Below, piece after piece: positions 7,232 to 59,335 of a stretch of 64,000 nucleotides of DNA. Origin of the DNA: Simmondsia chinensis (taxonomy: Eukaryota; Streptophyta; Magnoliopsida; Caryophyllales; Simmondsiaceae); contig JAGTTD010000001.1 of NCBI GenBank assembly GCA_018398585.1, positions 32,996,438-33,060,437 of the forward strand. The letters run 5' to 3'. Below the pieces are notes generated by a model. That model had not been told where the DNA came from, made no database searches, and saw only the letters and a program-made list of their open reading frames with translations. The position numbers and the translations under genes are program-made. Each line of letters starts with the position of its first letter. The stretch's first letter is position 1.

Positions 7232-7361
7232 ATTTCTGTCATGAAATGAATAAGGAGTAGCTTAGATTTAGGATAGTTGTAATTAGGCATGTGTTGTAAT
7301 GCTTTAGTGTGGTTGTTATGGTTGTTGATTGTTACAATTGGTTAACTAATTGATGGAGTAG

Positions 7362-7368
7362 TATAAAT
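7362..7368 (+). promoter_or_regulatory. TATA box of R LTR
   Basis: TATAAAT sits 125 bp into the 5' LTR, upstream of the CU-rich tract. A transcript starting about 30 nt downstream would place that tract in the R/U5 region, at both ends of the genomic RNA. The 3' LTR has the same box. Confidence 0.6.
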
Positions 7369-7420
7369 GGCTTAGGCTTGTACTAACAGAGGCATTCATG
7401 ATGTTAATGCAAATCTTATA

Positions 7421-7518
7421 CTTTCTCCCTCAATTCTATTCTCTCTACTTCCCCCTCTAATTCTCTTCTCTTTCTCATCTCTTTCTCAATTCTTTCTTTC
7501 CCAAACTCTCTTTCATTC
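7421..7518 (+). promoter_or_regulatory. CU-rich (polypyrimidine) tract in R 5' LTR
   Basis: About 98 nt are almost entirely C and T, with repeated TTCTCT, CTCTCT, TCTTC and TTTCTTTC, which are classic recognition sequences of polypyrimidine-tract-binding proteins. The tract is conserved in the 3' LTR at 9994-10090. Its function is not shown by sequence alone. Confidence 0.6.
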
Positions 7519-7555
7519 TAAGTCATAACCCGAGCCCACCTCGGGCCATGACAAT

Positions 7556-7567
7556 TGGTATCAGAGC
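7556..7567 (+). other. Primer-binding site of R (initiator Met-tRNA)
   Basis: TGGTATCAGAGC starts 2 bp after the LTR end. It is complementary to the 3' end of plant initiator methionine tRNA and is the usual Ty1/copia-type primer. Confidence 0.9.
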
Positions 7568-7792
7568 TCGATCTTGAGCACCCCAAACACACAAAATTGA
7601 ATGCCACCCGATCCAAATTGGGTCAAGAATTCAGATTCAAGTTGATCGAGAAATTGTGCTTCACACTGATCCAACTCAGCCAAGGACTTGCTGTTGCTCA
7701 TGGAAGTTGTGTTCTGGTGCAGATTTGTGTCCTTGTGTTCAGGATCATCAAGCTAGTACAACACACGCATATTGTGAGCTATTGGTCAAGGA

Positions 7793-9580
7793 ATGGCTGC
7801 ACAATTTGGCAAGGGATCCACACTCTTGGTAAGAATCTCAAATGCCATTTATCCCATCACCAAAAATATCCTCCACCTAGTCTTTGATCCCTATGGTTAT
7901 ATTGAAGAAATGGAAATTAACCCAATAACTAACCAAGAAATTGAAGCCTATGTGACATACTCTACAATAAACCAAGCTACCTTAGCAATTGTTCAACTAC
8001 GTGGAAGAAACATTTATGACAATTGTTGTGTCCTAGATGTACAATTCTTCAATCCTTGGTTGAAGATTGTGGAGACAAAAAAAGATCCTTCTCCAAGTGA
8101 GCCCTTAGACCCAAGAAAAGAGGAACTTCTTGTTTCTTTAGAAAACAAGCAGCACAATGATCAAGCAGTGGAGCACAACTCAGCTGGAAAAATTGGTGTC
8201 GATTTGGGCATGGAACCAGTAGTCGGGTTCAAGCCAGATCTTGCGCAAGAAGCAAAGAAGCCTGTCCTCATGCAAAATACAACAAATGGAGCTAGTGTTG
8301 GCTTGGATCAGAAAGATTCAGCAACAAAACAGCAAGATACTACCCTTAAACAAGCCAAAACAGATCAACATAGGGCAGTAAAATTGCCACCAATTCAGCA
8401 GCCAGTTGTGCTAGATTCAGCAGTGAATCAGGTTAAGGCCATGGCATCACAACAAAGGCCAGATTTGAGGGCAAGAATGAGGGATAACAATCTGCAAATT
8501 TCTGAAAATCAGACCAAGACTGAAGAGGTACTGCCTGTGGTTGATACAGAGGTAAAATCACAAGTGGCTATTGAAGTTTTGAGCATAAGGAAGCTGCGGG
8601 TAAAGCTCAAATTGCAACAAGGGTTGGAGATTAGTTTGGTCATTCACTTACATCACAAGAAATGCTTCTCAAGCAAGAGATTAAGAGCAAAACAAAAGCC
8701 AATCTTGGCTTACCATGGCAGACCACCTGATTTCCTAAAACTAAAATCGAATGCTAAAGTTCTTGGGAAGTTATGCAAGTTCAAGAACATGGAATTGAGG
8801 CAGCCTAAGATGGTGATGTGGCTAATTGATAAACTTAGTGCATCCTCTTGGATCAAAAGGATGTTGAAGAGGGCAAGAAGAATGAAGAATTCTATTAGAA
8901 ATTGTGCAAGTGCAGCAAGGAACCAGGGTGATGCTACTGCAGTACAACCGAAATCAGCACAAAAGTGCTCTAATCCTACCTCAGTGCATAGAGCTGCTCT
9001 AATTCAGCTGAGAAATTGGAAGTCAATTGCTGCAGCAGGATGTAACAAATTGAAGAGAAAGCTGGGAAAGGTTATGCAAGCTCGTGGAATTCATCAAGGC
9101 CCCAAGACCACTATAGTCATCACAATGGTTCACAAATGGGTGTTAAGGATACAAGGCTCACACGGCTGCAGTTTTTGCGTGTCATGGATCCAAGGAAATA
9201 GAGGACAGGTCTCACTATCAGGTGCTAATTGTTTTGAAGCTTCACAGATTCTGTTGGTGGTATTGGATTCATTAGGCCTGCACAATCAAGACCTCCTGAT
9301 CCTGTTGGTGGTATTGGATTCTCCAGTAACTAAACAATCAAGATCTCCTTATGCATCTAAGGCTTGGTTGATCTGGTATGACATGGGAAGACCCCCTGAT
9401 GTAAGTTGTTCAAATCAAATGCAAGACATTGCAGCAGCACAAGCCAATCTGTCCAAATTCAGCACCAAATTCAACATTCCAACTATGTTAGTGGTGCTAA
9501 GTCCTACAAACTGCAAGTTTTTGAGCATAAGAAGGCATTCACATCTGAAGCTTTCGGGATTAATGGTAGTATGCATGTAG
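7793..9580 (+). CDS. PTB-like RRM protein encoded by retrotransposon R
   Basis: A 595-codon ATG-initiated ORF fills most of R's internal region. Residues 11-87 form an RRM: RNP2-like LLVRIS (11-16), helix 1 'TKNILHLVFDPYG', a degenerate RNP1 position IEAYVTYS (50-57), helix 2, and the signature GRNIYDNCC followed by LDVQF. That last pair closely matches the second RRM of plant polypyrimidine-tract-binding proteins. Residues 95-250 are Q/K/D-rich and probably disordered. About 255-440 is strongly basic. Codons near 486-520 hold an in-frame 51-bp direct repeat. No gag, zinc knuckle or enzyme is visible. After about residue 270 the frame may be fortuitous: another frame gives a more protein-like 'DSVGGIGF..RPPDPVGGIGF'. 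An overlapping ORF without an ATG (7555-7887) precedes it. The RRM call is firm; the role is unknown. Confidence 0.8.
   Translation: MAAQFGKGSTLLVRISNAIYPITKNILHLVFDPYGYIEEMEINPITNQEIEAYVTYSTINQATLAIVQLRGRNIYDNCCVLDVQFFNPWLKIVETKKDPSPSEPLDPRKEELLVSLENKQHNDQAVEHNSAGKIGVDLGMEPVVGFKPDLAQEAKKPVLMQNTTNGASVGLDQKDSATKQQDTTLKQAKTDQHRAVKLPPIQQPVVLDSAVNQVKAMASQQRPDLRARMRDNNLQISENQTKTEEVLPVVDTEVKSQVAIEVLSIRKLRVKLKLQQGLEISLVIHLHHKKCFSSKRLRAKQKPILAYHGRPPDFLKLKSNAKVLGKLCKFKNMELRQPKMVMWLIDKLSASSWIKRMLKRARRMKNSIRNCASAARNQGDATAVQPKSAQKCSNPTSVHRAALIQLRNWKSIAAAGCNKLKRKLGKVMQARGIHQGPKTTIVITMVHKWVLRIQGSHGCSFCVSWIQGNRGQVSLSGANCFEASQILLVVLDSLGLHNQDLLILLVVLDSPVTKQSRSPYASKAWLIWYDMGRPPDVSCSNQMQDIAAAQANLSKFSTKFNIPTMLVVLSPTNCKFLSIRRHSHLKLSGLMVVCM
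9247..9352 (+). repeat. 51-bp direct repeat in the R ORF
   Basis: 'ctgttggtggtattggattc' occurs at 9251 and 9302, each followed by related 'caatcaaga.ctcct'. The 51-bp period keeps frame (17 codons). Confidence 0.85.
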
Positions 9581-9793
9581 AAGGCAAGAGTTACATGATG
9601 TTGCATATAAAGTCATGAAGCAGGACCAAGCCTTATGAAAAGGGTTAGTATTAGTTGGATCAATCAAGCTCTGCAAGTGAAGAAAGGAGCTCTGCAAGGC
9701 TAACTCAGAAAAACGGCTGCAGTAAGCTAAGCATTCAAGACATTTCATCACACTACAAATTCCTTAATTAGATTCTTGAGGACAAGAATCTCT

Positions 9794-9806
9794 AAAGGGG
9801 ATGTAA
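9794..9806 (+). other. Polypurine tract of R
   Basis: AAAGGGGATGTAA lies directly before the 3' LTR start at 9807, the expected position of the plus-strand primer. Confidence 0.8.
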
Positions 9807-10126
9807 TGTCATGAAATGAATAAGGAGTAGCTTAGATTTAGGATAGTTGTAATTAGGCATGTGTTGTAATGCTTTAGTGTGGTTGTTATGGTTGTTGAAT
9901 ATTGTTACAATTGGTTAACTAATTGATGAAGTAGTATAAATGGCTTAGGCTTGTACTAACAAAGGCATTCATGATGTTAATGCAAATCTTATACTTTCTC
10001 CCTCAATTCTATTCTCTCTACTTCCCCCTCTAATTCTCTTCTCTTTCTCATCTCTTTCTCAACTCTTTCTTTCCCAAACTCTCTTTCATTATAAGTCATA
10101 ACTTGAGCCCACCTCGGGCCATGACA
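9807..10126 (+). repeat. 3' LTR of R
   Basis: 320 bp, TGTCATG...CATGACA, followed by the TSD ATTTC. It carries the same TATA box and CU-rich tract (9994-10090) as the 5' LTR. Confidence 0.93.
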
Positions 10127-10131
10127 ATTTC

Positions 10132-34472: not shown

Positions 34473-35176
34473 TGTTGGGGAAAACATAAAAATTTTGTTG
34501 AAAAATAAACTCTGATGCCGACTATTGGGTTCACAGTTCTCAACTATGGTTACAACAATAGGCACCTATTAGAGCACTTAGAGTAGCAGACTCTTCTCTC
34601 TACCTAAGCCCCCGGTCGGAGAGTCACGCTTCGTGACACCTCACGTGCGAGAGTTCCCGGGAATAGATTTATCTCTATAAACCCTTTGCCCTAATACCGG
34701 TTATTGGGATGAATTTCAAAAATTCTCCCTAAAGATTACGTAGCGGAACATGTTTAGAATTCATAACTCTATACCTAGGGTTGATTTAAAATTCCTAATT
34801 TTAAATCCATTGACTTAAATTCATAATTCAAATCAACAAATCTAAATTCATAATTTAGATTTACAGGCTTTTTACTCTAATACATTCATAACAATACATA
34901 AACTTAAACAGGCATAATAACGAATACTGCAAATAAATAGAAAAGCGAAAACTAAAAAAGAAGGAAAGAAAGGACATACCTGAAATAGCTCCAATAATAA
35001 AGAAAACCAGAAAGGCAATAATATTCTTGAAAATCGAGGCCACGAGACCTTCTTCGCAATGACCTCGAACTGCCCAGAGCATGGGCTCCGAAAAATATTA
35101 AACTGGATCTCCGAAACAATTTCAAAAACCCTCAAGAAATATTTAACTCCAATGTAAACCTCGAAATGAGCCCCTC

Positions 35177-35184
35177 TATTTATA
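35177..35184 (-). promoter_or_regulatory. TATA box of LTR E
   Basis: TATAAATA on the minus strand, followed by 'gaggggc', identical in context to the G LTRs (52108, 58492). Confidence 0.7.
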
Positions 35185-35322
35185 GAAATATATCGGAGCC
35201 AAAAAATCTAATTATAATCGAAAAAGGATTCACCAGTTAACATCAAAACGCAGCGTTTTGTTAAAAACAGGTTCAAAACATCGCGTTTAGTAACAGTGCA
35301 ACCGCCTCTGAGGGCCAGTCAC

Positions 35323-35335
35323 CACGTGCCACGTG
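35323..35335. promoter_or_regulatory. Twin G-box motifs in LTR E
   Basis: CACGTGCCACGTG holds two CACGTG cores, roughly 140 bp upstream of the minus-strand TATA box. G-boxes bind plant bZIP/bHLH factors. One core remains in G's 5' LTR (51958-51963). Confidence 0.6.
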
Positions 35336-36685
35336 TCACGCCCTGATTGGCTGATACGAGAGCACGCGGATCCCCTTTTGTTTCTCCAACGCGCGACACC
35401 ATCCGCGTATTCTTGGGTCGCGACTATTTTAAATGTGATTTTGATTTTTTTTTTGTTTTGCTTTGTTTCCCACATGTAAAAATTCATCCAATGAATTTTA
35501 ATTTTTCAAAAATTATTTTATTTTATAATTTTTAATTTTTATTCATCTCATGAATAATATTTGGTAAAATTAATTTACCCATCTTATGGATAAATAATTC
35601 ATCACATGAATTCCTTAATATTTTTCTAGTGGCAATAAAATGTAGAGGCTTGCGTAAGAACCTCAGGGAAAATTTAAATCTAGCTCCAAATGGATTAAAT
35701 TAAATCATCTCATGATATTAATTTAATTACTATTTAATGAGACTTAATTCCACTAAATAAATCTCACTGCACTCCAGACTTAAATTATTTATTCGATATC
35801 TCCCTAATATACTGTATTGATGATAACAACCCCTCCACTAGATGTCCATGACAAAGGATAAATATAACCACTACCATTATCCTTCTCACAGCTTCTCCAT
35901 TAGTTACCGACTCGCCCTTTACTGAATAATTCATTTATACTTGAACATATTCATATTATAAATTCCAAATGTCAAACACTTGGAATACTTTGGCCAAAGT
36001 TTCCGAACTATTCAAATATTTGCGAATCAACTAAGGGGACATCTGTATCTCATAAGAGACTGTAGATTCCCCATTGAATACATGATCCTTGTCACATTTC
36101 ACGCCGCTACCCAGTGTACATGGGATTTCATTCATTCATTTTAGACCTTACTTATAGTACATCAAAGTAACTAACGCTCCATGCACAAGTCCAGAATACC
36201 CTCAGGATTTAGAGTCGTCATTCAAACAGTACAACGTGAATAACTCATCTCCGATAGTAGTCTAGAAATAAGTAACCCACATGGTCCAACTCAGTGTGTC
36301 AATCATATTAAACACACTAAATTAACACTTTTGGATCTCCATCCGCATGACCAAAACAAGCCATCTAAAGTGTCACGTTATAGTCTTAACATACAAGTGG
36401 TCCAGACTTGTCTTCGACTACATGTCTTTCAAACAGCAATCCATATCATTTGTTCCAAGTCTATCTGTGGCTTAGTCTCATAAACCACTTAGAACAAACA
36501 TGTAAATTGTAGTCAGAGGACTACACCCATCTCATAGATGTCTCCCGAAAGAAAATCACATGCAGTATAAATACTCACATACACAAATTTAACTAGGAAA
36601 CAACTGGGACTTCAATTTTATTTATTAATTAAAATAATATATCCAGAATAAATCTGAATTTCGGGACACTGTTCCTAACAATATT

Positions 36686-37899: not shown

Positions 37900-38640
37900 A
37901 TAGCCAACAAATATACATTCAATTCCTCTTTCCCTAACCTTTTTTTTTAGGTTCAAGGTCTTTGACAATTGCCCTACATCCCTAAACCTTGAAATAACTC
38001 AAGTTAGGAGCCCGTTTGTTCCAATATTCATATGGGATTATTTTACTTTTCTTATTAGAAACCCAATTCAAAATATGACAGGTCGTATGCATGGCCTCAC
38101 CCCAAAAACCATCACTGAGTCCTGAATATAATAACATGGCATTAACCATCTCAGTTAGAGTTCGATTTTTTCGCTCAGCCACGCCATTTTGTTTTGGTGT
38201 ATAAGGTTCCATGACCTCATGAATAGTCCCCGTGGTTTTAAAGTACTTAGGATCATAGTACTCACCACCATGATCAGTTCTTAAGGGTTTTAGGAATGTT
38301 TCACAATGTAGTTCTGTTTCAGCCTTCCATGCTTTAAATTTATCCATTAATTCATCTTTAAAATTCAAAAGAAATATATAGCAATATCTTGAACAATCAT
38401 CAATAAACGTTATAAAATATCTCTTTCCTCCTAGTGTAGGGGTACCTTAAAATCACACAAATCACTATGTATTAAATCAAGTAGACTCGTATTCGTTTGC
38501 ACTAAAGGAAATGGTAATCTTGATATTTTTGTGAGCATACAAATTTTACATTTATCAGTAACTTTATTAAAGTGTGGAATTAAGTCCGAGTTAGCCATAT
38601 TTTATATTCTACCGAAATTAACATGTCCACGTCTATGATG
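37900..38640 (-). pseudogene. Copia F integrase
   Basis: Minus strand. The HHCC zinc-binding region lies at about 38660-38540: 'HLWHHRRGHVNFGRI' followed by 'CKICMLTK'. The catalytic D,D,E acids are visible as DLIHSD, 'LRTDHGGEY' and 'QNGVAERKNRT'. The longest open piece is 38368-37982 (128 codons). Frameshifts separate the zinc and catalytic domains. The polyprotein order gag-PR-INT-RT is that of Ty1/copia. Confidence 0.9.
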
Positions 38641-39099: not shown

Positions 39100-39914
39100 G
39101 CGATTACCTAGCCCCTTGCCTCTCTTATTCTTGTGGCGGTGACAATCCTTTTTATATGACCGGGCCTGTGGCACTCCCAACAAATAGGCTTTTGCCTCTT
39201 TTCTTCACATTTCTTTGAGGAGTGTCTGGTTTATTTCGGTCCTTTACTTGATTGTCTTCTTCTATGACATTGATTTTTCTAATGTCCTCGGGACAATCCT
39301 TATTCTCATCCTGTAACCTATGACATTCATCAATACGAAGATGGTTAACTAACTCCTCAATAGACAAATCTTCCTTCTTATGTTTAAGTCCTTTTTTAAC
39401 ATCTTTCCATGAAGGTGGAAGTTTGTCTATCAAGGCGGAAACGATAATGATGTCATCCATGTTCATGTTATATTGCTTAAAGTGATTTAAAATCCTTTCA
39501 ATTTCATGAAATTGCTCAATAAAAGAATGATTATCGACCATTTTATAATTATTGAATTGACTCATAAGAAATTTCTTACTTGTAGCATCTTTTGCCATGT
39601 ACCTAGTTTCAAGAGTGTTCCACAATTCTTTGGTAGTAGTTATGTTGGAGTAGATATTGAAGAGAGCATATGTCATACCATTAAGGATATGACCCCTATA
39701 AATGTAATCATCATTCTCCATTTGAGTCTTGCACGTTGCTCAGCGAAGGTTTCATCATCGGATGGAGGAGGGTGGATTGTTGTATTCGTGACATACACCA
39801 CATTCAAAGCTGTGATCTAAAAGTGCATCTTTCTTTGCCAACGACGAAAATTTCCACCATTAAAACGGTTAGTTTCACAAAGTTCGTAGTCATCTCTCGT
39901 AGAGAAGAAGCCAT
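39100..39914 (-). pseudogene. Copia F gag
   Basis: Minus strand. The start codon is at 39914 ('MASSLREMTTNFVKL'). An early frameshift and an in-frame stop lead into the main open piece 39721-39152 ('KELWNTLETRYMAKDATSKK', 'NNYKMVDNHSF', 'INKLPPSWK'-type block). A CCHC knuckle 'CWECHRPGHIKR' follows near 39170, whose last cysteine is displaced by a one-base deletion. This is a typical plant copia UBN2-type gag, about 250 residues when intact. Confidence 0.88.
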
Positions 39915-47382: not shown

Positions 47383-48345
47383 TGTGAGGCCCTGCCAAGT
47401 AATTGGGCTTGAGTAGCCCAGGATAAAACACTTTCATTAACAACGTGTGGTTTTATTTTGAAAACCCTAATTAGTAACCACCCCTAAAATCCGCCGCACT
47501 AAATGGGACGTGTGGAAGACAGTTATACCCAATTAGAGCTCCAAAGCGTTCAGTCCTTTAGCCACGGCGACCGGAGACTCTTGCCGGCAACTAATGTAGG
47601 TGATTTCAGCCAGCGTCGGATTTCATCATTGCCACTTCAGATTGCCATTCCTCGCCACCGTCTTTACTTCGTCCGGCTGCAGCGCCACGAACAACGTCAT
47701 AAAGCGTTCACATCAGGCTACTATAGAATAAATAAGTTAATTACGTGTTAGACACGTGATTAAATAGTATTTTAGTAGGTACCTTTATTTTAGTAATAAT
47801 CTAGGTAATTTTCCCTTTTATTACTTAATTACAGTAGTATTAGTATTAGTTAGTTAGTCCCCCTCCCCTTATTATAAATAGTGGCAATTAGGTTGTAAGG
47901 GGTCATAATTTTGGGAATGTTAACTACTCTTTCTCTCCCCCTTACTATTCTCTCTATCTCTCCCTCAATTTCTTCTCTATCTCCCCCAATTTCTATATCG
48001 ATACAATTTTTACTATAATAATTACCTGTGTCGTTTTTTGAGTCCGGTGGGTGGTGGTCGTGGACCTGAGATGCGACCAATGCTTCGTCATCACGTCGAA
48101 GGCTTCTTCGCCGCCACGACGAAGGCCTTATCACCACCCCAGGACAAACACCTACTCAAGGCCTTCATAGCTCAAATCGTTCTCTCACTGGGAGTGGCTA
48201 TTCAAAATAGGCTCGTGCTTCAAAACCGATCCAGTGCGAGGGTTAGTCAATGTGAGGCCAGAACGAATCTGGACCCTTTTTCAAGGGGAGAGACTATCGG
48301 CCGCAGGCCTTCACTTGGAGAAGCCATTGTAACCGCCAGTTAAAA
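47383..48345. other. GC-richer island inside copia I, origin unknown
   Basis: It starts near 'tgtgaggccctgcc'. It has a TATA-like TATAAATAG (47873-47881), a CT-rich stretch (47930-47990) and short frames at 47503-47751 and 48038-48343 (plus). Composition and layout resemble an LTR (U3, TATA, pyrimidine-rich U5) or a captured promoter/5' exon. No partner LTR or matching TSD was found, and no protein family is recognised. Confidence 0.35.
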
Positions 48346-50592: not shown

Positions 50593-52823
50593 TGTTAGGA
50601 ACAGTGTTCTGAAATTCAGATTTATTCTAGATATATTCTTTCAATTAATAAATAAAATTGAAGTCCTAGTCATTTCCAAGTTAAATTTGTGTATTTGAGC
50701 ATTTATGCTGCATATGATTTTTTTTTTGGAAAGATCCATGAGATGGTTGTAGTCCTCAAACTATAATTTATATGTTTGTTCTAGTGGTTTATGAGACTAA
50801 GCCACAGATAGACTTGGAACAAATGATATGAATTATTGTTTGAAAGACTCGCAGTCGAAGACAAGTTTGGACCACTTGTATGTTAAGACTATAACGTGAC
50901 ACTTTAGATGGCTTGTCTTGGTCATGTGGATGGAGATCCAAAAGTGTTAAGTTAGTGTGTTTAATATGATTGACACGCTGAGTTGGACCATGTGGGTTAC
51001 TTATTTCTAGACTACTATCAGAGATGAGTGATTCACGTTGTACTGTTTGAACCACGACTCTAAATCCTGAGGATATTATGGACTTGTGCATAGAGTGTTA
51101 GTTACTTTGGTGTACTATAAGTAAGGTCTAAAACAAATGACTGAAATCCCACGTACACTGGGTAGCGGCGTGAAGTGTGACAAGGATCAGGTATTCAATA
51201 GGGAATCTACAGTCTCTTATGAGATACAGATGTCCCCTTAGTTATTCGCAAATATTTGAATAGTTCGGAAACTTTGGCCAAAGTATTCCAAGTGTTTGAC
51301 ATTTGAAATTTATACTGTGAATATGTTCAAGTATAAATGAATTATTCAGTGAATGGCAAGTCAGTAACTCATGAAGAAGCTGTGAGAAGGATAATGGTAG
51401 TGGTTATATTTATCCTTTGTCATGGACATCTAGTTGAGGGGTTGTTATCATCAATATAGTCTATTAGGGAGATATCGAATAAATAATTTAACTCTGAAGT
51501 GCAGTGAGATTTATTTAGTGGAATTAAGTCTCATTAAATGGTAATTAAATTAATATCATGAGATGATTTAATTTAACCCATTTGGAGCTAGATTTAAATT
51601 GTCCCTGAGGTCCCTACGCAAGCCCCTGTATTTTATTGCCATTAGAAAAATATTAAAGAATTCATAAGATGAATTATTTATTCATAAGATGGGTAAATTA
51701 ATTTTGCCAAATATTATTAATAAGATGAATGTATATTAAAAATTATAAAATAAAATAATTTTTAAAAATTAAAATTCATAAGATGAATTTTTACATGTGT
51801 GAAACAAAGCAAAACAAAAAAAAAAAAAGAAAAATCACGAAAATAACAGTGTGAATCCGTGTGCACGCGTAGCAGCCAACCAGCGCGTGATACATGTCGC
51901 GCATTGGGCCAACCGATGGTAATCCGTGCCATCAAGCACGGACCAATCACCGCGCGCCACGTGGCACGCGGTGACACGGTTAAAAGACGCGTGAATAGTT
52001 CTTCAAACGCGTTGTTTTGTTTTAATTTTGAATGATATGTTGCGTTTTGACTTAAACTAGCGAGTCCTTTTTCGATTATAATTAGATTTTTTTCGTCAGG
52101 TATATTTTATAAATAGAGGGGCTTATTCCGAGGTTTGGCATTTTGAGTTCAAAAAATAATTCTTTAGGGTTTTTGAAATTATTTCGGAGATCCAGTTTAA
52201 TATTTTTCGGAGCCCACCCTCCGGGCAGTTCGAGGTCATTGCGTAGAAGGTCTCGGGGTCTGGCTTTTGAAGAAAATTATTTTCTTTCTTGTTTTTCTTT
52301 TATTGGAGCAACTCCAGGCATGTTCTTCTTTCCTTCTTCTTTTAGTTTCGTTTGTCGATTTATTTATAGTATTCGTTATTATGCCTGTTTAAGTTTATGT
52401 ATTGTTATGAATGTATTAGAGTAAAAGGCCTGTAGATCTAAGTTAAGAATTTAGATTTGATGATTTAAATTATGAATTTAAGTTAGTAGATTTAAAATTA
52501 GGAATTTTAAATCAACCCTAGGTTTAGAGTTATGAATTCTAAACCTGTTCCGCTGCGTAATCTTTAGGGAGAATTTTTGAAATTCATCCCAACAACCGGT
52601 ATTAGGGCAAAGGGTTTATAGAGATAAACCTATTCCCGGGATCTCTCGCACGTGAGGTGTCACAAAGCGTGACTCTCAGACCGGGAGTTTAGGTAAAGAG
52701 AAGAGTCTCCTACTTTAAGTGCTATAAGAGGTGCCTATTGTTGTGACCATAGTTGAGAAATGTGAACCCAATAGTCGACATCAGAGTTTATTTTCCAATA
52801 AAATTCATATCCTTTTCCCAACA
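50593..52823 (+). repeat. 5' LTR of G
   Basis: 2231 bp, TGTTAGGAACAGTG...TTTTCCCAACA. A GC-rich block (51850-52000) with a CCACGTGG G-box (51957-51964) and a CCAAT lies upstream of the TATA box. That block is about 60% G+C in an otherwise AT-rich element. Confidence 0.92.
52108..52115 (+). promoter_or_regulatory. TATA box of G 5' LTR
   Basis: TATAAATA followed by 'gaggggcttattccgagg'. The same box is at 58492-58499 in the 3' LTR. Confidence 0.7.
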
Positions 52824-52825
52824 GT

Positions 52826-52838
52826 TGGTATCAGAGCC
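52826..52838 (+). other. PBS of G
   Basis: TGGTATCAGAGCC, perfectly matching the Met-tRNA primer sequence of copia elements, begins 2 bp after the 5' LTR. Confidence 0.92.
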
Positions 52839-56993: not shown

Positions 56994-59184
56994 TGTTAAG
57001 AACAGTGTCCTGAAATTCAGATTTATTCTGGATATATTATTTCAATTAATAAATAAAATTGAAGTCCCAGTCGTTTCCTAGTTAAATTTGTGTATTTGAG
57101 CATTTATGCTGCATGTAATTTTCTTTTGGGAAACATCCATGAGATGGGTGTAGTCCTCAAACTAAAATTTACATGTTTGTTCTAAGTGGTTTATGAGACT
57201 AAGCCACAGATAGACTTGGAACAAATGATATGGATTGTTGTTTGAAAGACTCGTAGTCGAAGACAAGTTTGGACCACTTGTATGTTAAGACTATAACGAG
57301 ACACTTTAGATGGCTTGTGTTGATCATGTGGATGGAGATCCAAAAGTGTTAAGTTAGTGTGTTTAATATGATTGACACACTAAGTTGGACCATGTGGGTT
57401 ACTTATTTCTAGACTACTATCGAAGATGAGTGATTCACGTTGTACTGTTTGATCGACGACTCTAAATCCTGAGGGTATTCTGGACTTATGCATGGAGCGT
57501 TAGTTACTTTGGTGTACTATAAGTAAGGTCTAAAACGAATGACTGAAATCCCACGTACACTGGGTAGCAGAGTGAAGTGTGACAAGGATCAGGTATTAAA
57601 TAGGGAATCTACAATCTCTTATGAGCTACAGATGTCCCCTTAGTTGATTCGCAAATATTTGAATAGTTCGAAAACTTTGGCCAAAGTATTCCAAGTGTTT
57701 GACATTTGGAATTTATACTGTAAATATGTTCAAGTATAAATGAATTATTCAGTGAAAGGCTAGTCGGTAACTAATGGAGAAGCTGTGAGAAGGATAATGG
57801 TAGTAGTTATATTTATCCTTTGTCATGGACATCTAATGAAGGGGTTGTTGTCATCAATACAGTCTATTAGAGAGACATCGAATAAATAATTTAAGTCTGG
57901 AGTGCAGTGAGATTTATTTAGTGGAATTAAGTCTCATTAAATGGTAATTAAATTAATATCATGAGATGATTTAATTTAACTTATTTGGAGCTAGATTTAA
58001 ATTGTCCCTGAGGTCCCTGTGCAAGCCTCTGTATTTTATTGCCATTAGAAAAATATTAAAGAATTCATGAGATGAATTATTTATCCATAAGATGGGTAAA
58101 TTAATTTTGCCAAATATTATTCATAAGATGAATGTATATTAAAAATTATAAAATAAAATAATTTTTAAAAATTAAAATTCATAAGATGAATTTTTACATG
58201 TGTAAAACAAAGCAAAACAAAAAAAGGAAAAATCCAAAAAATAACAGTGTGAATCCGTGTGCAAGCGTAGCTGCCGTGTCGCGCGCTGGGCCAATGGATG
58301 GCAATCCGTGCCATCAGGCACGGACCAATCACCGCGTGCCACGCGGCACATGGTGACACGGTTAAAAGACGCTTGAATAGTTCTTCAAACGCATCGTTTT
58401 GTTTTAATTTTGAATGATACGCTGCATTTTGACTTAAACTGGCGAATCCTTTTTCGATTATAATTAGATTTTTTTCTCTTGGGTATATTTTTATAAATAG
58501 AGGGGCTTATTCCGAGGTTCGGCATTTTGAGTTCAAAAAATAATTCTTTAGGGTTTCTGAAATTGTTTCGGAGACCCAGTTTAATATTTTTCGGAGCCCA
58601 CCCTCCAGGCAGTTCGAGGTCATTGCGTAGAAGGTCTCGGGATCTCGATTTTGAAGAAAATTATTTTCTTTTTTGTTTTTCTTTTATTGGAGTAACTTCA
58701 GGTATGTTCTTCTTTCCTTCTTCTTTTAGTTTCCCTTGTCTATTTATTTATATTATTTGTTATTATGCCTGTTTAAGTTTTTTAAAAGGCCTGTAGATCT
58801 AAATTAAGAATTTAGATCTGATGATTTAAATTATGAATTTAAATCAGTAGATTTAAAATTAGGAATTTTAAATCAACCCTAGGTTTAGAGTTATGAATTC
58901 TAAACCTGTTCCGCTGCGTAATCTTTAGGGAGAATTTTTAAAATTCATCCCAACAACCGGTATTAGGGCAAAGGGTTTATAGAGATAAACCTATTCCCGG
59001 GAACTCTCGCACGTGAGATGTCACGAAGCGTGACTCTCCGACCGGGGGCTTAGGTCAAGAGAAGAGTCTCCTACTTTAAGTGCTCTAATAGGTGCCTATT
59101 GTTGTGACCAAAGTTGAGAACTGTGAACCCAGTATTCGGTATCGGAGTTTATTTTCCAACAAAATTCATGTCCTTTTCCCAACA
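56994..59184 (+). repeat. 3' LTR of G
   Basis: 2191 bp, preceded by the PPT 'ggacaagtgagagat'. Very similar to the 5' LTR, but the G-box is lost (CACGTGG to CACGCGG) and a short deletion lies in the GC-rich block. Confidence 0.92.
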
Positions 59185-59335
59185 GATGGGTCAGGTGGTT
59201 CGATGTTCTTTTAGCATAACTCTGAATGGAATGTGAATATTGTAGTAACAGGTGATAGATGGCTTTACTTAATTGGAGAAGTGGTGGATGCAAATTTTGA
59301 ATGTGCCATTTGTCTAGTTAATAAAACCTTGTTCA
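59185..59335 (+). pseudogene. L1 LINE endonuclease, continuation
   Basis: Resumes after copia G: 'GSGGSMFF', 'SEWNVNIVVTGDRWLY' and 'FECAICLVN', in the order seen in the middle of plant L1 endonucleases (SGGxxxxW ... W.v ... vYAPN-like block). The match fades after about 59335. Confidence 0.7.

Follow-up and report, generated by a model that had tools for sequence, protein, structure and literature searches.

The stretch of DNA analysed here, called the window throughout, comprises 64,000 nucleotides of the 831 Mb, 35-contig genome of Simmondsia chinensis (C31:32996438-33060437), and at positions 7237-10126 it carries a complete long terminal repeat (LTR) retrotransposon whose single long open reading frame (ORF) begins with an RNA recognition motif (RRM) of the type found as RRM2 in polypyrimidine tract-binding proteins (PTBs). 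Related elements are abundant in the same genome, their RRMs group together apart from those of PTBs, and the domain evolves under purifying selection, as does a strongly basic module further downstream in the window's group of copies. The reading that we prefer, with reservations, is that the elements encode a ribonucleoprotein (RNP) or adaptor protein of their own. The whole study is computational, and elements and proteins are known here from their sequences.

Anatomy of the element

Paired LTRs, a 5-bp target duplication, a primer-binding site (PBS) and a polypurine tract identify the window element as an LTR retrotransposon, while the gag and pol domains that would make it autonomous were not found. 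Its features are as follows, where omega denotes the ratio of nonsynonymous to synonymous substitution rates and CU stands for cytosine and uracil.

7232..7236, unstranded: left target-site duplication ATTTC (copy at 10127-10131)
7237..7553, + strand: 5' LTR, 317 bp, with ends TGTCATGA...CCATGACA (self-match to the 3' LTR)
7362..7368, + strand: putative TATA box TATAAAT of the 5' LTR (from sequence)
7424..7523, + strand: CU-rich tract of the 5' LTR, core 7434-7502 (from pyrimidine content)
7556..7567, + strand: primer-binding site TGGTATCAGAGC (from sequence)
7793..9580, + strand: single ORF, 595 amino acids (aa) plus stop
7817..8050, + strand: RRM core, codons 9-86, PTB RRM2 type, PF11835 (from Pfam, sequence, fold and selection)
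8105..8272, + strand: linker, codons 105-160 (omega 1.08, without sign of constraint)
8546..9013, + strand: constrained downstream region, codons 252-407 (omega 0.49-0.61)
9794..9801, + strand: polypurine tract AAAGGGGA (from sequence)
9807..10126, + strand: 3' LTR, 320 bp, with the same CU tract, core 10007-10075 (self-match)
10127..10131, unstranded: right target-site duplication ATTTC (copy at 7232-7236)

The two LTRs are 97.2% identical with gaps counted (6 substitutions over 317 sites). The PBS, TGGTATCAGAGC, is one that we take to be of the initiator tRNA-Met type; among 31 copies with a flanking repeat pair, the exact sequence GGTATCAGAGC lies close to the end of the 5' LTR in 19, and a similar purine run precedes the 3' LTR in 25 when a loose pattern is applied. 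The internal region holds one long frame of 600 codons from stop to stop, the runner-up of all six frames having 110. Pfam detects no gag or pol domain in the window ORF, and in this ORF and nine relatives the RRM is the sole domain of credible score, with gag matches in none of the 10. The initial annotation of this DNA had described an element without gag or enzyme of its own, and the absence of such domains from the ORF, together with a limit of 110 codons on the other frames, agrees with that description. The single ORF thus lacks the gag domain by which elements of the TR-GAG type are recognised.

Identity of the RRM

Residues 7-86 of the ORF match the Pfam family PF11835 (RRM_8) with an E-value of 6.7e-17 and 61.9 bits, the curated cut-off being 26.2, and the closest solved relatives by sequence are the RRM2 domains of hnRNPLL, PTB1 and hnRNPL; by both measures it is a PTB RRM2 domain. 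The predicted structure is an RRM fold (block-mean pLDDT, a per-residue confidence measure, of 86-92 over residues 11-80), for which the best Foldseek match is RRM2 of PTB1 (3zzy). That an element with a PTB-RRM2-like start to its ORF lies here had been proposed in the initial annotation, and it is confirmed with exact coordinates.

The window RRM is 46-47% identical to those of the Amborella and host PTB3 proteins. In a search of about 5.8 billion proteins, which finds solely relatives with shared exact 5-residue words, the only match of the whole ORF was Amborella PTB3, and the RRM region alone gave none. A 13-row RRM alignment used as query returned six proteins, P0001-P0006. The first three are PTBs of Amborella and Papaver; P0004 and P0006 (from JGI contigs) and P0005 (303 aa, from the grass Stipagrostis) are 240-303 aa long, have RRM_8 but none of the other PTB domains, and may represent similar elements in other plants, perhaps derived from a separate capture. 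Two scans of viral contigs found no relatives, and among the matches listed in the open-licence PubMed Central literature there was no description of an LTR element with a PTB-type RRM.

Abundance and groups of copies

With the whole element as a DNA query, 140 matches were obtained in the host genome, which is a lower bound because only 40 of 2,779 candidates were scored. An RRM is present in 35 of the 38 fetched loci (L009-L046), and in 31 of these 35 it is flanked by a repeat pair that we regard as LTRs. At L015 and L024 the repeat pair may stem from a tandem or nested structure. The PF11835 model gave 2,202 first-look candidates in the host genome, and all 150 of those scored were above the curated cut-off; it gave none in 14 control genomes, which may not be plants. 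A query made of RRM1, RRM3 and RRM4 of PTB had only two matches, both to the RRM3-4 part and at one place, and therefore the amplification seems to concern the RRM2-type domain alone.

Some copies are closely spaced. At C8:11639580-11646668 five RRM copies lie on one strand at intervals of about 1.71 kb, with no stops in the match, a tandem array that perhaps arose by recombination between LTRs. Close pairs or groups of RRMs were also seen at C3:38506521, C8:13769761, C12:5735721 and C4:3838839.

Eleven further loci (L047-L057) came from the family search, with RRMs 41-67% identical to that of the window. The PBS motif was found upstream in five of 10 short stretches (L048, L049, L050, L054 and L057). 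Tails of 22-112 aa were read, of which the one from L050 was too short, leaving 10 for comparison. The tail of L054 matches the window's group well and that of L056 weakly, to one row (E 7e-4); for the other eight no match to this group is found at E 0.01, and every one of them connects with one or more of the remaining seven at E <=2e-5. Because these eight tails are unlike those of the window's group yet linked among themselves, the sequences indicate that the RRM is common to at least two element groups with different tails.

For a view independent of the RRM, 12 of 100 listed LTR-PBS junctions (2,082 in all) were read, all on the plus strand and spread over contigs. Places known to have an RRM were left out, which makes the sample non-random and biased against RRM elements. 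It yielded an RRM at four junctions, a Ty3-type gag (PF03732) at one, and neither within 800 nt at seven, where the longest frame had no Pfam match above cut-off. These seven, L060, L061, L064, L065 and L067-L069, have the same LTR-end/PBS junction, and the frame of L069 is glutamine-rich.

Origin of the RRM

In a tree of 32 RRM2 sequences (P0006 was left out) all 25 element RRMs fall into one clade (99/99), apart from the PTBs and from P0004 and P0005, from which we conclude that the sampled element RRMs have a single origin. The host PTB3 gene (from C4:28538006) has introns within RRM2, which is split over several exons, while the element RRM is continuous and free of introns; for this reason the domain was probably captured via spliced RNA, once and long ago. 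The octapeptide LHGRNIYD occurs in host PTB3 and in most element RRMs, the corresponding sequence in Amborella and Papaver being LQGRNIYD.

Purifying selection on two parts of the protein

Selection was estimated with Goldman-Yang (GY) codon models in which the tree was fixed and, under omega = 1, the transition/transversion parameter kappa was tried at three values, so that the likelihood-ratio statistics (2dlnL) are approximate. Stop codons were masked, and a row entered a segment set only if 60% or more of its codons were aligned. The rows dropped were L012, L020 and L031 (RRM broken or gapped), L015b and L040 (duplicates), and L033b and L035b (3' part not homologous).

Across both groups the RRM has an omega of 0.41 (2dlnL ~51; 15 loci, 11 found by the protein model and four via the PBS). 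A control set of loci found solely by DNA similarity or PBS gave 0.59 (2dlnL ~9.9, n=11), and consisted of seven of the 32 rows of the window's group, hand-picked for spread, plus the four PBS-found loci. The linker, codons 105-160, is at 1.08 (2dlnL ~0.1, 10 rows), and values below 1 return further downstream, with 0.53 for codons 252-300 (2dlnL ~12, 23 rows), 0.49 for codons 301-345 (2dlnL ~22, 29 rows) and 0.61 for codons 346-407 (2dlnL ~7, 13 rows). On balance, these estimates indicate that the RRM and the basic module are kept by purifying selection and that the linker is not. An RRM under selection in an otherwise drifting ORF had been the expectation of the initial annotation. Its first half is borne out, as omega lies below 1 across copies and groups (0.41-0.72) and neutral evolution of the RRM is not what is seen; its second half has to be given up, since the basic module is constrained as well (0.49-0.61) and the linker alone is near 1.

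The 78 RRM codons are free of stops in 40 of 47 element RRMs. Other measures were given less weight. The median NG86 ratio is 0.48 (466 of 561 pairs), and is not used as main evidence; neutral simulation gave 0.66-0.81, not 1. Pairwise codon-position counts in the other sets place most change at position 3 and least at position 2. Counts against the window copy alone, in which positions 1 and 3 are equal in the RRM, were not used because every row shares the window's own changes.

The basic module is conspicuous for a net charge of +23 over codons 251-365. Within the constrained downstream region, near 8690-8750, lies the motif KPILxYHGRPPDFLxLK, and a strict pattern detects a similar peptide at 21 of 36 group loci, three of which have it twice. 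A looser form, KPILxYxGxPPDFLxLK, was noted in the window (8690-8750) and in L010, L014 and L017, and is duplicated in some copies. The proline-rich core of the motif loosely recalls ligands of PTB RRM2 ([S/G][I/L]LGxPP). The KPILxYxGxPPDFLxLK peptide may serve the RRM as an internal ligand.

The CU tract of the LTRs

Both LTRs had been said to contain an almost pure CU tract of about 98 nt. The tract is indeed present in both, at a lower purity of 84% pyrimidine over 100 nt. Each LTR has a 64-nt run at 90% pyrimidine or more, where 200 shuffles of the 5' LTR gave runs of 14 nt on average and 26 nt at most. Because the tract starts about 55 nt downstream of the TATA box, it is probably included in the transcript as part of the RNA leader. 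Its absence from other copies would have counted against the idea of the initial annotation, but the tract recurs: in 28 of 31 fetched rows with a repeat pair the run exceeds the longest shuffled one, the others being L029, L039 and L040, of which the last two are near-duplicates. CU-richness is also seen outside the window's group, in the RRM element L079 of the second group (86% over 80 nt).

Elements with an RRM are not the only ones to carry the tract. The longest run measured, 100 nt, is in the LTR of the gag-bearing element (L072), which has the same LTR ends as the RRM elements, and at 47872-47978 of the window a unit in which no RRM was detected has a TATA box and then a CU tract, resembling the LTR tract at about 81% across 57 nt. 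Plant promoters commonly have a pyrimidine-rich feature, the Y-patch, to which the tract can be likened. It is therefore rather probable that the CU tract is an ordinary pyrimidine-rich promoter or leader feature of the LTR, unrelated to the RRM, a view that is compatible with the explanation we prefer for the protein. Against it stands a comparison of LTR ends, in a small sample of about 200 nt per LTR before the PBS: the runs measure 41, 15, 21 and 21 nt in four ends from loci with neither RRM nor gag, two of these ends being alike in sequence, and 43, 43 and 43 nt in three RRM-bearing ends.

RNA-contact and peptide faces of the RRM

RRM2 of human PTB has two independent surfaces, one for RNA and one for peptide, according to two reports (PMC10342978, PMC3420021). 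The RNA contacts given there for PTB1 RRM2 are R185, I214, F216, L225, S258, K259, L260, L263, K266, Y267 and K271 (PMC10342978), and the peptide face is made up of Y193, L241, Q244 and Y247 (PMC3420021). In the latter report, Y247Q abolishes Raver1 binding and leaves RNA binding intact, K271A does the reverse, and mutation of Y193, L241 or Q244 leaves a splicing assay unaffected (PMC3420021).

Seven of the RNA contacts are common to PTB1 and host PTB3, namely F216, L225, S258, L260, L263, Y267 and K/R271, and among 47 element RRMs these are kept in 0, 3, 1, 0, 0, 0 and 1, respectively, in an alignment that is less certain past position 259. Position 214 is hydrophobic in all 47, position 185 is Leu in 42 as in host PTB3, and position 259 is Asn in 33. 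The contact residues are thus not those of a PTB-type CU-binding RRM. The peptide face is retained, with Y193 in 45 of 47, L241 in 41, Arg at 244 in 45 (as in host PTB3) and Y247, which is Tyr75 in the window RRM, in 46, so that the Tyr193/Tyr247 pocket of a PTB RRM2-type peptide-binding surface is present. The net charge of the RRM core has a median of -2 (-5 to 1), compared with +1 for the corresponding residues of host PTB3 and PTB1. From these residues it seems that PTB-like CU binding has been weakened, the RRM having given up its ancestral RNA contacts and kept its docking face; RNA binding of a new specificity is possible.

The initial annotation's central idea, an RRM that reads CU tracts as PTB does, fits poorly with the near-complete loss of the shared contact residues. 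We consider it unlikely that the RRM binds the CU tract of its own RNA in the manner of PTB, for packaging, export or protection from splicing, and take this to be the less likely route of action. It gains from a PTB RRM2-type domain that is under selection, from a tract that is present in both LTRs and in most copies and lies downstream of the TATA box, from the CU-richness of L079, and from the canonical RNP1 aromatic in 31 of the 47. It loses from the absence, in nearly all 47, of contacts that host PTB3 has kept, as defined in one report (PMC10342978), from the negative core charge, and from the occurrence of the longest tract in a gag-bearing element.

A further explanation, in our view about equally doubtful, is a protein directed at the host: by competing for PTB/Raver-type cofactors, the copy of RRM2 would protect the element's RNA in trans against splicing or silencing. 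We know of no plant ligand, and a benefit in trans would reach all copies and would thus imply weaker selection per element. In its favour, the peptide-pocket residues are kept while the RNA contacts are lost, and Tyr247 of human PTB RRM2 is reported to be needed for Raver1 and not for RNA binding (PMC3420021).

A candidate partner

Among the junctions read, that of L070 (C9:1241966) is followed soon after the PBS by a frame with the Ty3-type gag domain PF03732, with no RRM within 800 nt after the PBS. Its LTR ends, read in L072, are TGTCATGA/CCATGACA as in the window element, and over the 30 nt that start at the LTR-PBS junction the two agree at 90%. The searched part of the gag frame begins 183 nt past the junction, at about the position where the ORF of the RRM elements starts. 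The gag group to which it belongs has 13,297 first-look candidates, of which 150 were scored. An element of the L070 type may mobilise the RRM elements.

An autonomous element with the RRM upstream of gag-pol was also considered, and was not found in the loci read (L055/L058 and L070). The frame of L055 enters L058 for about 0.88 kb and then stops, and the remaining 4.2 kb has no frame of at least 120 aa.

Weighing the preferred reading

On the reading that we prefer, an element-encoded RNP or adaptor protein, the lineage would consist of long-lived non-autonomous LTR retrotransposons with a chimeric protein in place of gag. This chimera would combine an N-terminal PTB3-like RRM, a fast-evolving linker and, in the window's group, a strongly basic C-terminal module, the RRM having been taken once from the spliced mRNA of a host PTB3-like gene. 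Enzymes and capsid would come from a Ty3-type partner that shares the LTR ends and PBS region. The protein would aid the element's own RNA or copies by RNP formation, with the basic module contacting nucleic acid and the RRM mainly docking a partner protein, either a host splicing or RNA cofactor or Gag, via its dorsal tyrosine pocket.

Several observations weigh against this reading. The RRM within the window's group has an omega of only 0.72 (2dlnL ~5.4, 32 copies), a value that is likely to be raised by post-insertion decay, since the two LTRs within each of 28 copies have diverged by 1.5-7.4% and a good deal of the within-group change would postdate insertion. With growing divergence, pooled pN/pS (0.49 overall) climbs from 0.45 to 0.59, for which saturation at synonymous sites may be responsible. 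Stops are not rarer in the RRM than in most of the ORF, at 0.38 per 100 aligned codons against 0.00-0.72 beyond codon 86, counting alignable codons only. Constraint on the downstream module was measured in the window's group only, and the fold prediction for this module, made from a single sequence, is uninformative (mean pLDDT 44). The Tyr at RNP1 position 5 (31 of 47) and the Arg or Lys at PTB1 position 187 (44 of 47) fit RNA binding, and the fold, rather than peptide binding, may be what preserves the tyrosines of the pocket. The partner, finally, is drawn from the LTR ends, PBS region and gag frame of one sampled locus.

That the protein matters to the element is very probable. A functionless PTB fragment carried along as a passenger is rejected as highly improbable: gene captures are known in plant LTR elements (PMC13317346), and many single copies are broken by stops, but omega is below 1 on either side of the unconstrained linker, in the RRM and in the downstream module, also for the RRM in the control set not found by the protein model, and the domain is kept in two groups with mostly non-matching tails.

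Other features of the window

On the minus strand of the window, frames at 37982-38446 and 39152-39739 resemble, by eye, copia integrase and gag. A 2.2-kb repeat occurs three times (34473-36680, 50593-52828 and 56994-59189) with a mutual identity of 88-92%.

Relation to known systems and implications

With RRM2 of the PTB family (plant PTB homolog 3, human PTB1, hnRNPL/LL) the element RRM shares the fold, the RNIYDxCC signature and the peptide-pocket tyrosines. It differs in that the element protein has a single RRM without introns and with a one-residue insertion after position 213, in the loss of the CU contacts and the C-terminal extension, and in its net negative charge. TR-GAG, LARD and TRIM elements are non-autonomous LTR elements, TR-GAG having one structural gene; the window element is similar to these in being a short LTR element with PBS, polypurine tract, one protein and enzymes presumably supplied in trans, and departs from TR-GAG in that its protein is an RRM chimera in which no gag domain was detected. 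Plant long interspersed nuclear elements (LINEs) of the BNR type have ORF1 proteins with an RRM, and so share an element-encoded RRM protein with a possible RNP role; here the element is of the LTR class and the RRM is of PTB RRM2 ancestry.

Host coding sequence inside an LTR element, here of a cDNA-like origin, is also found in Bs1 of maize and others, and the Ulp1-carrying Vandal/MULE elements (KIU) show an anciently captured host domain kept by a transposon lineage, as described in one paper (PMC13317346). In distinction from Bs1-type elements, one old capture appears to be kept under selection in many copies and at least two groups; unlike the KIU elements, which are DNA transposons, the present ones are LTR retroelements without enzymes of their own.

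Non-autonomous elements are commonly assumed to need nothing but cis signals for their persistence. In the present set, selection has kept a captured host RNA-processing domain in at least two groups and perhaps, from a first look, in up to about two thousand copies. This makes it testable what an enzyme-less but protein-coding retroelement gains from its own protein, and offers a natural experiment in which an RRM has seemingly dropped its ancestral RNA contacts and retained a protein-docking face. We tentatively envisage a major group of plant LTR elements that runs on a PTB-derived RRM protein instead of Gag, captured once and now the hallmark of several non-autonomous families, which would link their RNA to the capsid of a partner or to host RNA factors. 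If true, this RRM-for-Gag group would be the LTR-element counterpart of the ORF1 proteins of LINEs.

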